NCBI GenBank assembly: GCA_016278725.1
Contig: JADQBG010000001.1
Coordinates: forward strand, 131,414-195,413
DNA from: Actinomycetota bacterium
GTDB lineage: Bacteria > Actinomycetota > Thermoleophilia > RBG-16-64-13
DNA: 64,000 nt
Direction: 5' to 3'
The notes under the pieces are model-generated. The model saw only the letters and a program-made list of their open reading frames with translations, was not told the DNA's origin and did not search any database. Positions 16,536 through 28,330 of this stretch are shown here, piece by piece. The translations under genes and the position numbers were made by a program. Position 1 is the first letter of the stretch. The number at the start of each line of letters is the position of its first letter.

Positions 16536-17174
16536 ATGAGTAAGCACGGGTTTCGAATAGCAGCGGTAGCATTCGCGCTCGTTGGGCTCGGGTTGCTGGC
16601 GGCGGTTGCCCAGGCTTTCGTGGGCCAGCCGGGATCTCCGGGATTCGCCCTGCCGGCCAAGGACGCGCAGATGCTGGCGGTCGTCGAGTCTTGCTTCCCG
16701 GGCGATCAGGAGCGGGACCAGAACCAAGCCAACGACCAAACTCGTGACAACCTCCAGAGCGGCGACCGCGACCGCGACCAAGATTGCGTACCTGGAGATT
16801 GCCTACCTGACTGCGATTTGGATCGTGACCGGCTCAGGCTGCAGGAGCGGGACCAGCAGCAGGATTTGAGTCGCGGCTCAGGTCCTGTGGTGGCGGCGCC
16901 GGTGCGTAGCCAAGAGCGGCAGCACGAGCAGGTCCAAGAGCGGACCCAAGAACGGGTCCAAGCGCAGACCTCCGCCCCCGACGCGGCCGCCGTGACCGCA
17001 CGCGAGCAACACCGGGTCGCGGAGCCGGTGAGCGCGCAGGCTGAGGAGCAAATTCAGGAGCAGAATCGCGTTACCACCGAGACCCAAGCCCAGGTGCGTG
17101 AACCGGTGCGTGAGCAAATCTGCACTGAGACCCAGGACCAGGTCGGCGAGCCGGAGGGGAAGGGTAAGCGCTAG
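16536..17174 (+). CDS. Secreted Gln/Arg/Glu/Asp-rich low-complexity protein
   Basis: A 212-residue protein; ATG 16536 follows GAGGAGGCC. Residues 1-28 look like a signal peptide (FRIAAVAFALVGLGLLAAVAQAF). The rest is a hydrophilic polyampholyte. One segment of about 50-110 is rich in Asp, Arg and Gln and carries four cysteines (Cys53 region, CVPGDCLPDC). A second segment of about 120-205 has repeats of the type Q-E-R-T-Q, EQVQERTQERVQAQ and TETQAQVREPV. No known domain was recognised. It could be an extended or coiled surface protein, or a hydrophilin-like stress protein; this is a guess from composition. It has its own promoter and terminator, so it is monocistronic. Confidence 0.75.
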   Translation: MSKHGFRIAAVAFALVGLGLLAAVAQAFVGQPGSPGFALPAKDAQMLAVVESCFPGDQERDQNQANDQTRDNLQSGDRDRDQDCVPGDCLPDCDLDRDRLRLQERDQQQDLSRGSGPVVAAPVRSQERQHEQVQERTQERVQAQTSAPDAAAVTAREQHRVAEPVSAQAEEQIQEQNRVTTETQAQVREPVREQICTETQDQVGEPEGKGKR

Positions 17175-17480: not shown

Positions 17481-20719
<3,239 letters not shown>

Positions 20720-20723
<4 letters not shown>

Positions 20724-21904
20724 AGCTGGGAGAGGTTGAACAGGATCTGAGCGATCTCCCCGCGGGGCATCCGACCCCACGGATCCAGCTGGGCCAACGG
20801 GAGCCCCTGCAGCAGTCCGTTGTAAGCCGCGATCCGGACGTTGCCGCTATGGATGGGGCTAAACTCGCCCCACGGGCCGTTGAAGGCAACGGAGGGGGGT
20901 GCCAGTCGTCCCGGCTCCACCCAGGAGACCGCGCGAACGACCATGCTTATGGCCTGGGCGCGGCTCACCGGCTCCAGCGGGGCGAATAGCCCGTTGGGGT
21001 TACCTTCGACGATCCCTCGGCTCCATGCGAAGCCGATGTAATTGTCGGGATAAAGCGAGGCAGGGCCGCTGCTGTCCACGTCGGGGAATACGCAGCGATC
21101 CGCTTCCGAAGGGGTGTAACCGAGCGCGTTGACGGCCAGCTTCGTGAATTGCTGCCTGAGCAGAGGATCGTTCAGTCCGAAAGAGCCGTCTGTGTAGCCG
21201 TCGACCACGTTTCTTTCCGCCAACTGCGCGACCGCAGGAGCGTAGGGGTGTGTCGCGGGCACGTCGGTGAAGCTCGGATTCGCGGCATCGTCCGGGGTGG
21301 CAGGCGGCTGCCCGTCGGAGCCGTCGGGCGCGGTGCCAAATTCTGTCGTCCAGTACCAGACACCCGTACTCGGATCCAGCGCGCGGGCGATGCCGATGAC
21401 CCTCCACACGGTACGGTTGCTGCCCTCGCCCGGGTCCAGCATGTTGCTGTTATGGGTGGGCGAACCTTTCCACGCGCTCAGAGCGCTTGCCGCCTCGGCC
21501 ATCCCGGCACCGAGGTTCTCGCCGGTGGTGTGGGCGGCGTCGTAACCATCGAGGCGCATCCGGTCCCAGGAGTGGGAACCCACCGGGTAGTAGTCGGACT
21601 GTTCGGAGACGTGAGAGAAGAAACCATACTTCGCCATGTCGCTGCTGTGCCGCTCGGCCGTGAGGCTGAGTTGACCGGAGAGGGCCAGCGGGGCACGCCC
21701 TTGTTCTGCCCGATACTGGTTGATGAGCTCCAGGAAGGCCAGCTCCTGCGAGTCGTAGCCGACCGCCGCGTGGGCCGGGACGGGCGGCACCGAGCCCAGT
21801 AAGACGGCAAGAAGGAGGAGTCCGAGAAAGGGACCAAGCCATCGGAGGTTGCGGCCGACCCGAAGGCTCGTGAGTGTGGCTCGGTGGCTCTTGGTTGCCC
21901 GCAT
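20720..21904 (-). CDS. Secreted CAP (SCP/PR1) domain protein with SLH repeats
   Basis: A 394-residue exported protein. ATG 21904 follows GAGGGGTGGG; TTG 21925 is an upstream option. Signal peptide at about residues 20-46 (FLGLLLLAVLLGSVPPVPAHA). A CAP domain spans about 50-190, with LNQYR-like LINQYRAEQGRAPL, His86, HTTGENLGAG and NMLDPG. Three S-layer homology motifs follow at about 211-394 (FTDVPATHPYAPAVAQLAERNVVDGYTDGSFG and two more). SLH motifs anchor proteins to cell-wall polymers. The CAP domain function is unknown in bacteria. The stop overlaps the carB1 stop. It may belong with the sortase cluster on the same strand. Confidence 0.9.
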
Positions 21905-22098
21905 GCGCGAAATCCCACCCCTCAACTGTGCCTCTCCCTTTCTCTAGCTCCGCTAGTTGCATCGGCGCGAAAGGAGATTTCTTTAGATGAGAGTGAGGCG
22001 GAAGTACGGACGGAAAGCCCGGCCGGAGGGCCCGGGAGGAGGGACGGTAGGCAGGTACGGACGGGCGGGGAAGTCCGACCCCACCAGACAGGGGAGAC

Positions 22099-22872
22099 CT
22101 AGGTTTCTACTCGGAGAAAAGTACCGTAGACGATGATGTTGTCACGGTAGTGCCTGGTGGAGTAGTCGAATTCTCCACCGCAGGTAATCAGTCGCACCAC
22201 GCGTTCGGTGGTGTCGTTCCAGATCTTGTCCGCGGGAAGTTCTGACTTGGGAAGTTGTTCCCGCTCCTGAACGGCATACACGACGGTCACCCCATTCTGG
22301 CCCACCAAGCGTATCTCATCCCCCGGAGCGAGATCGCGGAGCCGGTAAAAAACGTCTGGTCCCCTCCGGGAATCGACGTGGCCTGCGAGCACGGCGGGCC
22401 CCGGCTGACCGGGCATGGGACCGGGTTCATACCAGCCGACCAGACCGAAGTCCGGAACTTCCATGGCGCCGTCTGGTAACAGGCCCACCGGTACGACCTC
22501 TTCATCGACCCCTATCGCGGGGATCCCGATCCGGACGGGGGGAGAGGCTGGAACGGAGAGTGCCGTAGAAGTAGATGAAGGCTCCGCCGTCCGCGGCGGT
22601 ACATCAGCCCAGCGAGGCGACTGATTGTCCGGATTGGTCGCGCTCCATCCGGGAACGGAAGAGGGCCGAGCCTGCAGCGGGGCGGCATCCACGCGGAGGA
22701 CTTCTTCGGCTGATTGCTGAGTGTCGACCACCTCAGGACGGTCGTTTGCCGGCCAAAAAAGGGCGACACCGACGAGCGCAAGGGAAACTACCAGAAAGAG
22801 CGCCGCGGCTCCTAGAGGGCCGCGGCGCTTGCTTGCTGCCGGCTTCGTAGTGCGATTCTCAGGCGAAAGCAT
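22099..22872 (-). CDS. Sortase (class F-like)
   Basis: About 257 residues; ATG 22872 follows CGGAGG. An N-terminal TM helix lies at residues 20-42, followed by a Ser/Pro/Thr linker and the sortase barrel from about 110. Catalytic residues are visible: AGHVDSRRGPDVFYRL (His), LITCGGEFD (Cys) and HYRDNIIVYG (Arg). GHVDS with GPAVF-like sequence is characteristic of actinobacterial class F sortases. These transpeptidases join secreted proteins to cell-wall peptides on the outer face of the membrane. It lies 25 nt downstream of a Thr-rich anchored protein, its probable substrate. Confidence 0.88.
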   Translation of the reverse strand: MLSPENRTTKPAASKRRGPLGAAALFLVVSLALVGVALFWPANDRPEVVDTQQSAEEVLRVDAAPLQARPSSVPGWSATNPDNQSPRWADVPPRTAEPSSTSTALSVPASPPVRIGIPAIGVDEEVVPVGLLPDGAMEVPDFGLVGWYEPGPMPGQPGPAVLAGHVDSRRGPDVFYRLRDLAPGDEIRLVGQNGVTVVYAVQEREQLPKSELPADKIWNDTTERVVRLITCGGEFDYSTRHYRDNIIVYGTFLRVET

Positions 22873-22897
22873 CAAGCCTCCGTGTCAGGACTCCCAG

Positions 22898-23767
22898 CTA
22901 ATCGCGTCGCCTCTTGACTGCCTGAAGTCCCGAAGGGCTCCAAATCAGCAGAGCCAAGATGGCGAACAGCCCTGCGACTACGAGAAGGAACTGCCGCCAT
23001 TCGGCGAGTCCGTCCTCACCTGCGACGGCAAGTCCGCCGCCCCCGGCGTCCACGCGGGTCGGGTATTGGACGCTACTGCGTAGGGTGGTCGTCACGGCTG
23101 CCGCAGCCTGGGTAGTCGAGGTCGTAGGCGCCACGGTGGTCGTGGTCGTTGGAGCCACGGTGGTCGACGTGCCGGCTGATTGCTCCAGCGTTGTCGAGGT
23201 CGTCGGCGCTTCGGTGCTCGTGGTCTCGGCCAGGACGCTGGTCGTCGTGGTCGGCGCTTCCGTGGTTGTGGTCGGCGCCGCTGTCGTCGTAGTTTCATCG
23301 ACGCTCGTCGTGGTGGTCGTGGGCGCGACAGTTGTGGTGGTAGGGGCGGCAGTAGTGGTAGTCGTGTCACACGTGACATGGCTGATCACTAGGTTGTTGA
23401 AGTCGCCCTCTCCGGTGTACGAAACGTCAGCGTACGCCGATTCCACGCTTCCCACGCCGTCAACGTAGAAATGGACCGCTCCGCTCAGTTGACTGGCTGT
23501 TGCCGATGTTGGTCCGGATTCGCTAAAGGTGACGTAAAGCGTTGCGGCGGTCACCGTGGTGTTATTCGAGGAGTAGGACAGAATCCAGTGCCACTCCCCA
23601 CCCAACTCGCACGTTACGTTTTCACCTTGCCCAGTCCACGTAACTGATGTTTGTGTCGTCGCTTGCGAAACGGCGTCACTGGGGGAGAGGGCCAGACCCA
23701 CTATAAGCAACCCCAACAGCAACGCGCCTCCAAGTCGCAGGGCGACACGTAGTCCTGTTCCTTCCAT
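22898..23767 (-). CDS. Secreted Thr-rich surface protein with C-terminal anchor, likely sortase substrate
   Basis: A 289-residue protein; ATG 23767 follows GAAAGGATC. Signal peptide at residues 8-33. A folded domain at about 36-133 has two cysteines and Tyr/Thr strands. A Thr/Pro/Ala stalk at 134-225 is built from APTTTT, VAPTTTT and TEAPTT repeats. Then YPTRVDAGGGGLA at 235-247, a TM helix at about 259-276 and a terminal KRRRD. This is the order of a wall-sorting signal, but there is no LPxTG; the Gly-rich VDAGGGG would have to serve. The operon with a sortase supports the assignment. Unrelated to known enzymes as far as I can see. Confidence 0.75.
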   Translation of the reverse strand: MEGTGLRVALRLGGALLLGLLIVGLALSPSDAVSQATTQTSVTWTGQGENVTCELGGEWHWILSYSSNNTTVTAATLYVTFSESGPTSATASQLSGAVHFYVDGVGSVESAYADVSYTGEGDFNNLVISHVTCDTTTTTAAPTTTTVAPTTTTTSVDETTTTAAPTTTTEAPTTTTSVLAETTSTEAPTTSTTLEQSAGTSTTVAPTTTTTVAPTTSTTQAAAAVTTTLRSSVQYPTRVDAGGGGLAVAGEDGLAEWRQFLLVVAGLFAILALLIWSPSGLQAVKRRRD

Positions 23768-24065: not shown

Positions 24066-27379
<3,314 letters not shown>

Positions 27380-27383
<4 letters not shown>

Positions 27384-28330
27384 CCTTTCGCTGGCTGACC
27401 CCCGCCGACGGCGTCGAGGACCACCGCCCTTCGGCGCGGCTGCAGGGCAAGGTCAGCCACAGCGAACGGATCGGCTCGATGTACCTCCTTCGCCTGCGGA
27501 TTCCCGGTTGGCAGACGGCGGGGGCCGGGCAGTTCGCCATGTTGCAGGCGGGAGGCTCTTCTTGCTTTCTGCCTCGGGCCTTCAGCATCCACGAGGAAGT
27601 GCCGCCGGCCCCGGGGGATCCGGAGCGGGCCTACGAGGTGGGTTTCCTGCTGGCCCCGGTTGGGCCGGGAACCGAGGAGCTCAGCGAACTGCAGGTCGGC
27701 GACGCCGCCGGGGTGCTCGGCCCACTGGGGACGGGCTTCGATCTCGGACTGCTCTCCGGCGCAGGCCGGGTCGTGGTGGTAGCGGGAGGGGTGGGGGCTG
27801 CGCCCTTTCCATTGTTGCTCGAGCGTCTGGCGGCGGCTTCACCGCGGCCCCGGGAGATTCTGGTGCTGTTGGGTTTTCGCGATGCCGTGCAGGCGGAGGC
27901 GGTTCACGTGTTCTCAGAACCGGTGAGCCGCCTGCGGCGCTTGGGAGTTCCCACCCACGTCGAGTTGATCTCCGAGGCGGGGGACACCGGCAGGACCGGT
28001 CTGGTCACGGAACTTCTCCGCGAGGAGCTTCGGGCGGAAGATCGCCTGGTGGTATGCGGCGCCCATGCGATGTGCGAGGCGGTTTGGGACGTCTGCCTGG
28101 ATTTCCTCGAGCAGTCCGCACCGGTGGCCGAGGAAGCCGGCAACGAGGTCCCCGCATGGTTCAGTCTCGAAGCCGGTATGGCCTGCGGAACCGGTTCCTG
28201 CCAGGGTTGCGTCATCGAGATCGCGGACGGCTCTTTGGCAAAGGTCTGCCGGCGAGGGCCCGTCTTTTCGGGAGCGGAGGCGTTCGGTCATCGCCGTCAC
28301 CCTTGCGCTCTACCTGAGAAGGAGGGTTGA
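27380..28330 (+). CDS. pyrK: Dihydroorotate dehydrogenase electron transfer subunit PyrK
   Basis: A 316-residue flavoprotein. ATG 27380 overlaps the carB2 stop. It has the FAD-binding barrel with PRAFSIHE (equivalent to RPFSI), an NAD-binding part starting [20 protein letters not shown], and a C-terminal 2Fe-2S site with [13 protein letters not shown] and a later Cys in KVCRRGPVF. PyrK passes electrons from PyrD to NAD+. About 30-40 residues longer than many PyrK proteins at its N-terminus ([20 protein letters not shown]). Confidence 0.93.

Follow-up and report, generated by a model that had tools for sequence, protein, structure and literature searches.

A class F sortase gene and its threonine-rich neighbour in an Actinomycetota genome: a predicted glycine-rich sorting signal as a divergent variant of a database-known code

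Background

Actinobacterial class F sortases have already been stated to carry Asn in place of the catalytic Arg (PMC6998099), a residue which, in models of the class E enzyme SrtE1, donates a hydrogen bond to the carbonyl at P3 of the sorting signal (PMC5148588). The only class F enzyme reported as assayed is that of Cutibacterium acnes, which joins LPQTGE peptides in vitro (PMC7451113), and in 2026 the roles of the class were still described as unknown (PMC13251363). The latter study reports that Actinoplanes missouriensis showed no phenotype after deletion of its full set of four class F genes, and the substrate search that it describes used only motifs of the LPXTG, NPXTG, SPXTG, PPXTG, LPXTA and LAXTG types (PMC13251363); such a list would miss proteins with a Gly-type signal. 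A GVDTG sorting domain is held in the NCBIfam database (release 20.0, June 2026) as NF058571, GVDTG_CTERM. Here we describe a gene pair in a stretch of 64,000 nucleotides from an Actinomycetota bacterium (the window) and compare it with these systems.

Results

Layout of the gene pair

The original prediction that a Thr-rich, tail-anchored protein lacking LPxTG stands beside a sortase was borne out by two ORFs on the minus strand, 25 nt apart, the gene for the presumed substrate (the partner) coming first and the sortase gene second. Their features are as follows.

22898..23767, minus strand: Thr-rich tail-anchored secreted protein of 289 aa, the presumed sortase substrate (ORF and ribosome-binding site)
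23033..23062, minus strand: candidate sorting signal PTRVDAGGGG, residues 236-245, expected cut Ala241/Gly242 (fits the consensus of class F partners column by column)
22940..22990, minus strand: C-terminal membrane helix FLLVVAGLFAILALLIW, residues 260-276 (hydropathy; helix also in a low-confidence model)
22904..22915, minus strand: basic tail KRRR (sequence)
22099..22872, minus strand: class F sortase (ATG start, GGAGG immediately 5')
22378..22380, minus strand: codon for the catalytic His (shared by 166 of 168 class F sequences, with a gap in the remaining 2)
22180..22182, minus strand: codon for the catalytic Cys (shared by 167 of 168 class F sequences, with a gap in the remaining 1)
22138..22140, minus strand: Asn codon occupying the position of the catalytic Arg in other sortases (162 of 168 class F sequences share the Asn)

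The partner starts with ATG, with AAAGGA upstream, and consists in order of an N-terminal hydrophobic signal, a domain of about 100 residues with two cysteines, a Thr-rich stalk, YPTRVDAGGGGLA, the membrane helix and a KRRRD end; its C-terminal part reads SSVQYPTRVDAGGGGLAVAGEDGLAEWRQFLLVVAGLFAILALLIWSPSGLQAVKRRRD. No family was matched in Pfam and NCBIfam scans of the partner, and a phmmer search with its domain against the ORFs of the collected loci (E<=1) returned only copies of itself. The AlphaFold2 model of the partner, built from 3 alignment rows, was uninformative (pLDDT 45.9). The sortase ORF was listed as 22099-22875(-) with a TTG start, and the ATG at 22872 is likelier, with GGAGG just before it; the enzyme has an N-terminal membrane helix.

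Directly 3' of the pair and on the same strand lies 20720-21925(-), which encodes a secreted, S-layer-type protein with a CAP domain and SLH domains. These surface-protein genes lie between two genes for full-length large subunits of carbamoyl-phosphate synthase, 17481-20723(+) and 24066-27383(+), both above the NCBIfam cut-offs; a dihydroorotate dehydrogenase gene follows the second of the two at 28327. The product of 16536-17174(+), a low-complexity protein with much Asp, Arg and Gln that looks secreted, matched no family in the NCBIfam scan.

The sortase belongs to class F and carries Asn in the Arg column

The class F model NF033748 (curated cut-off 166) matched the sortase with E 7.6e-49 and 165.3 bits in hmmscan, and with 166.6 bits, above the cut-off, in the genome search, so that membership is borderline but holds. 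The general sortase family PF04203 matched at E 2e-23, the AlphaFold2 model of the catalytic domain reached a pLDDT of 97.2, and all 50 matches listed in a structure search with this model were sortases. The enzyme also has the residues expected of class F, with His and Cys present and Asn for Arg.

Across all 168 class F enzymes surveyed (see below), the Arg column holds Asn in 162, Ile in 2, Arg in 2 and Asp in 1 and is gapped in 1. The two Arg-bearing enzymes, L012 and L014, have the lowest class F scores of all paired loci, and exactly these two have a neighbour ending in LPTTG. We infer that loss of the Arg and change of the signal may belong together, a comparison of two enzymes with 162 in which the two are distant from the rest. 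The structure alignment of 73 rows excluded L012, L014, L013 and L150, so its invariant columns are invariant by selection.

A common tail upstream of class F sortases

Class F sortases were searched for in 399 genomes of the window's class, 44 of which had a match at E<=1e-20, and in 396 genomes of the phylum, 64 of which had one at E<=1e-35. The survey took a subset of the places found, including 100 further stretches for which genera other than g150 were preferred, and after ten duplicates had been dropped it comprised 163 loci with 168 sortase ORFs. Just upstream of the sortase, 96 of the 163 loci have a same-strand ORF with a terminal helix, a figure that includes at least three loci with an implausible tail (L152, L159 and L202), which were kept in the denominator. 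By this rule the other 67 loci have no upstream tail ORF; some have one in another orientation and some may have none. Among the loci of the window's class, L045, L051, L183 and others carry low-scoring class F sortases with Asn at the Arg place and have no upstream tail-anchored neighbour by the same rule.

The pattern [TA]GxG[GSPA] was found before the helix in 76 of the 96 upstream loci, compared with a mean of 17.0 (sd 3.4, maximum 26) when the pre-helix segments were shuffled (99 rows, 500 shuffles), and an LPxTG-like motif was found in 2. The pattern had been fixed after the first 33 of these loci, 28 of which have it; in the 63 loci fetched afterwards it occurs 48 times (shuffles: mean 11.9, maximum 22) and LPxTG not once. 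Since related sequences are not independent, all of these survey counts overstate the case. Most of the 20 non-matching loci carry close variants, such as PTSVDSGTG and PAGVPTGNS. This tail feature thus precedes class F sortases in many genomes, more often than by chance.

When 92 rows were anchored on the T/A-G step, which inflates some of the column counts, we found P in 69 at -6, G in 66 at -4, G in 55 at -3, V, I or P in 82 at -2, T or A in 86 at 0, G in 83 at +3 and G in 73 at +4. The common signal of the class F partners is PxGGVx[TA]GxGG, and YPTRVDAGGGG of the window fits it; PTR[VI]DTGGGG stands beside related sortases in L122, L152 and L135. Family scans of 62 of the 94 partner references identified DUF4397 in 12, ice-binding-like domains in 10, CHRD in 4, DUF4331 in 2 and fasciclin in 1. 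Because the ectodomains are of several kinds, the tail is common to these proteins without common ancestry of the whole protein.

As a control, 30 class E loci were taken from genomes that also hold class F; among their 11 tail ORFs the Gly pattern does not occur. In the class F loci themselves, tail ORFs other than the upstream partners have the pattern in 8 of 48 cases, and 7 of the 8 look like displaced partners. NF058571 scored above its cut-off in 28 of the 396 genomes, every one of which belongs to the 64 that have class F (E<=1e-35), a co-occurrence which is not fully independent evidence. At E<=0.001 it matched in 58 genomes, of which 13 lie outside the 64, and in most of these 13 it is chiefly the helix portion of the model that aligns. 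No match at this threshold was seen in 19 of the 64 class F genomes, that of the window included. In our search of the open-access literature the signal was named in no paper found; 'TGxGG' with sortase gave none, and the papers found with 'GVDTG' are not on sortases by their titles.

The candidate signal of the window is a form of its own sub-branch

The sortase of the window has IW before the Cys strand (ADKIWNDT...LITCGG), whereas most of the others have VY or VF. Among the 97 loci with an assigned signal, an Arg three residues before the T/A is present in 8 of 11 signals beside IW enzymes and in 0 of 86 others (p 1e-9, uncorrected for kinship). Six of the 97 signals come from displaced partners, and four of these six stand beside IW enzymes; with the six set aside, the association is 5 of 7. 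The Arg-type signals are PTRVDTGGGG, PNRVEAGAGG and PTRVDAGGGG, the last being that of the window. In the sortase tree, whose root is a single long branch (L012) and of which only the topology and the Arg label were used, the IW enzymes, that of the window included, form one branch (SH-aLRT 99) spanning four families (f1, f21, f44 and f50). As IW enzymes and Arg signals match by branch, the signal of the window appears to be the dialect of this branch and not a chance run of glycines. With the fit to the consensus, the recurrence in the survey and this match by branch, VDAGGGG, which was originally proposed as the cleavage motif, is by a wide margin the leading candidate for the signal that would be recognised and cleaved.

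Close relatives

Some match to the sortase was found in 19 of 61 genomes (the own genome and 60 relatives), and a long match in 5 of the 18 family members, counting the own genome (G000, G002, G007, G010 and G011). In G010 and G011 a partner lies upstream as in the window, with pre-helix ends PPASQVQAGGGGTAGMG and PTPVGIIQTGGGGTAGPS, respectively. By the upstream-tail rule no adjacent partner was found in G002 and G007; G007 has an unlinked secreted protein, L220, with VDDIDTGHG ahead of a terminal helix (tail profile E 0.0087). In G009 the sortase is present only as a short broken class F remnant (L013, 1438-1701(+)), which is probably a decaying copy. A search of genome contigs for related loci gave one distant locus, L026.

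The genome of the window

This genome has two sortases, that of the window and one on contig C18, which scores best against the class E model yet stays under the cut-off of that model. A profile built from 31 partner tails gave the tail of the window as the sole significant match (E 5.8e-7), the next (E 0.016) being a membrane protein without the signal; the search for further VDAGGGG-like tails suggested with the original prediction thus gave no second significant tail. A DNA pattern that calls for four glycine codons and then a small tail occurs at 62 places in the genome, which is uninformative by itself because the reversed-pattern control gives 95; inspection of 30 of the 62 revealed no tail other than that of the window.

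Other substrates using LPxTG, which would have spoken against a dedicated signal, were not seen. The LPXTG anchor model TIGR01167 gave 9 matches at E<=10, none with LPxTG and the tail of the partner not among them, and no LPxTG tail was found in the genome. The single match above the cut-off, L247, was rejected as an LPXTG substrate; it is a zinc-ribbon membrane protein with a Gly run ahead of a helix that is not terminal. On contig C18, L253 1-1764(+) has EFTNTG followed by a membrane helix and RR, and is a possible substrate of the other sortase.

Discussion

We consider it very probable that the two genes form an operon in which a class F sortase is paired with a substrate of its own, anchored by means of the Gly-rich signal. 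By analogy with other sortases, the partner would be exported, and its C-terminal helix and basic tail would then hold it in the membrane. There it would be presented to the sortase, itself membrane-bound, whose Cys would attack the carbonyl of Ala241, between PTRVDA and GGGG. The piece comprising GGGG, helix and tail would be released and the partner passed to an amine acceptor linked to the wall or the membrane. The layout suggests that the small domain is held out from the wall by the Thr-rich stalk, which would keep it away from the cell.

Conservation of a Gly-rich linker close to a helix could have other causes, and the partner may be a permanent tail-anchored membrane protein, with the glycines as a flexible linker and the sortase acting elsewhere. 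Such linkers are common ahead of helices, as L247 in the same genome exemplifies, but P, V, T/A, G and G stand at constant distances in proteins whose ectodomains are unrelated (DUF4397, ice-binding-like, CHRD, DUF4331 and fasciclin), the shuffled segments fall far below the observed pattern counts, and the window has the only tail among the inspected 30 of 62 four-glycine places; we regard a permanent anchor as unlikely. Much the same small chance is given to the view that a class F enzyme devoid of the catalytic Arg cleaves the signal and then hydrolyses it, releasing the protein rather than anchoring it, as might be thought from the Asn in 162 of 168 enzymes and from the hydrogen bond of the Arg to the P3 carbonyl in the SrtE1 models (PMC5148588). 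Against it, transpeptidation is reported for the C. acnes class F enzyme (PMC7451113), and Thr-rich stalks fit wall-held proteins. That the partner is anchored by the class E/D-like sortase on contig C18 and not by the adjacent class F enzyme seems very improbable: a second sortase is indeed present, but the partner gene adjoins the class F gene, the signal follows class F and not class E enzymes, and the tail has neither LAxTG nor LPxTG.

Beyond the operon with its own substrate, we are inclined to think, with some reservation, that class F may constitute a parallel sorting system of the Actinomycetota orthogonal to LPxTG/LAxTG, in which an active site with Asn for Arg goes with a signal that has lost Leu-Pro and acquired fixed glycines after the cut, with one enzyme and one substrate per operon. 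Its sub-branches would use dialects: PxGGVxTG, P[TN]RV[DE][TA]G (that of the window) and PxxVx[TAS]G[NT][SAG]G beside DUF4397-type proteins. For a sortase class without known physiological substrates the signal supplies a concrete assay peptide. Adjacency to class F genes gives a list of candidate substrates, and the signal is possibly usable as a ligation tag orthogonal to LPxTG.

Comparison with known systems

The closest described entity is NF058571, to which the tail of the window is similar in its V, x, T, G type of signal, its membrane helix and its basic end, and from which it differs by Arg for Gly before the Val and Ala for Thr. The window's protein gave no match to this model at E<=1, nor did its tail at E<=10, and it is thus outside the membership score (>29 bits); the tail of G010 has no match and that of G011 scores 5.8e-5, under the cut-off. 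The layout of a GVDTG domain is nonetheless there, with V-x-[TA]-G-x-G-G ahead of a helix and beside a class F sortase, so the tail probably looks and works like a GVDTG sorting domain though it is not filed as one. Of the expectation that a dedicated non-canonical signal would be new or rare, one part stands, as the pair looks dedicated and the version of its branch lies outside NF058571; the other part does not, as the general signal is already NF058571, which matches 39 of the 62 class F partners tested. Since the pairing recurs across the Actinomycetota, the pair of the window is to be seen as a divergent case of a database-listed tag.

The enzyme lies at the cut-off of the class F family, to which C. 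acnes SrtF is assigned; LPQTGE is reported as the signal of the latter (PMC7451113), a distinction drawn from the published description. With class E, as represented by Streptomyces coelicolor SrtE1 and its LAXTG signal, the pair shares the sortase fold, and in both cases a signal other than the canonical one goes with an enzyme class dedicated to it (PMC5148588), but class E retains the Arg and has Leu-Ala-x-Thr-Gly as its signal, and the Gly pattern is in 0 of 11 tail ORFs at the 30 class E loci. On the sequence comparisons, the predicted signal of the window is best described as a divergent variant of a database-known sorting code and as the sub-branch form of the class F consensus, with a putative cut between Ala241 and Gly242.
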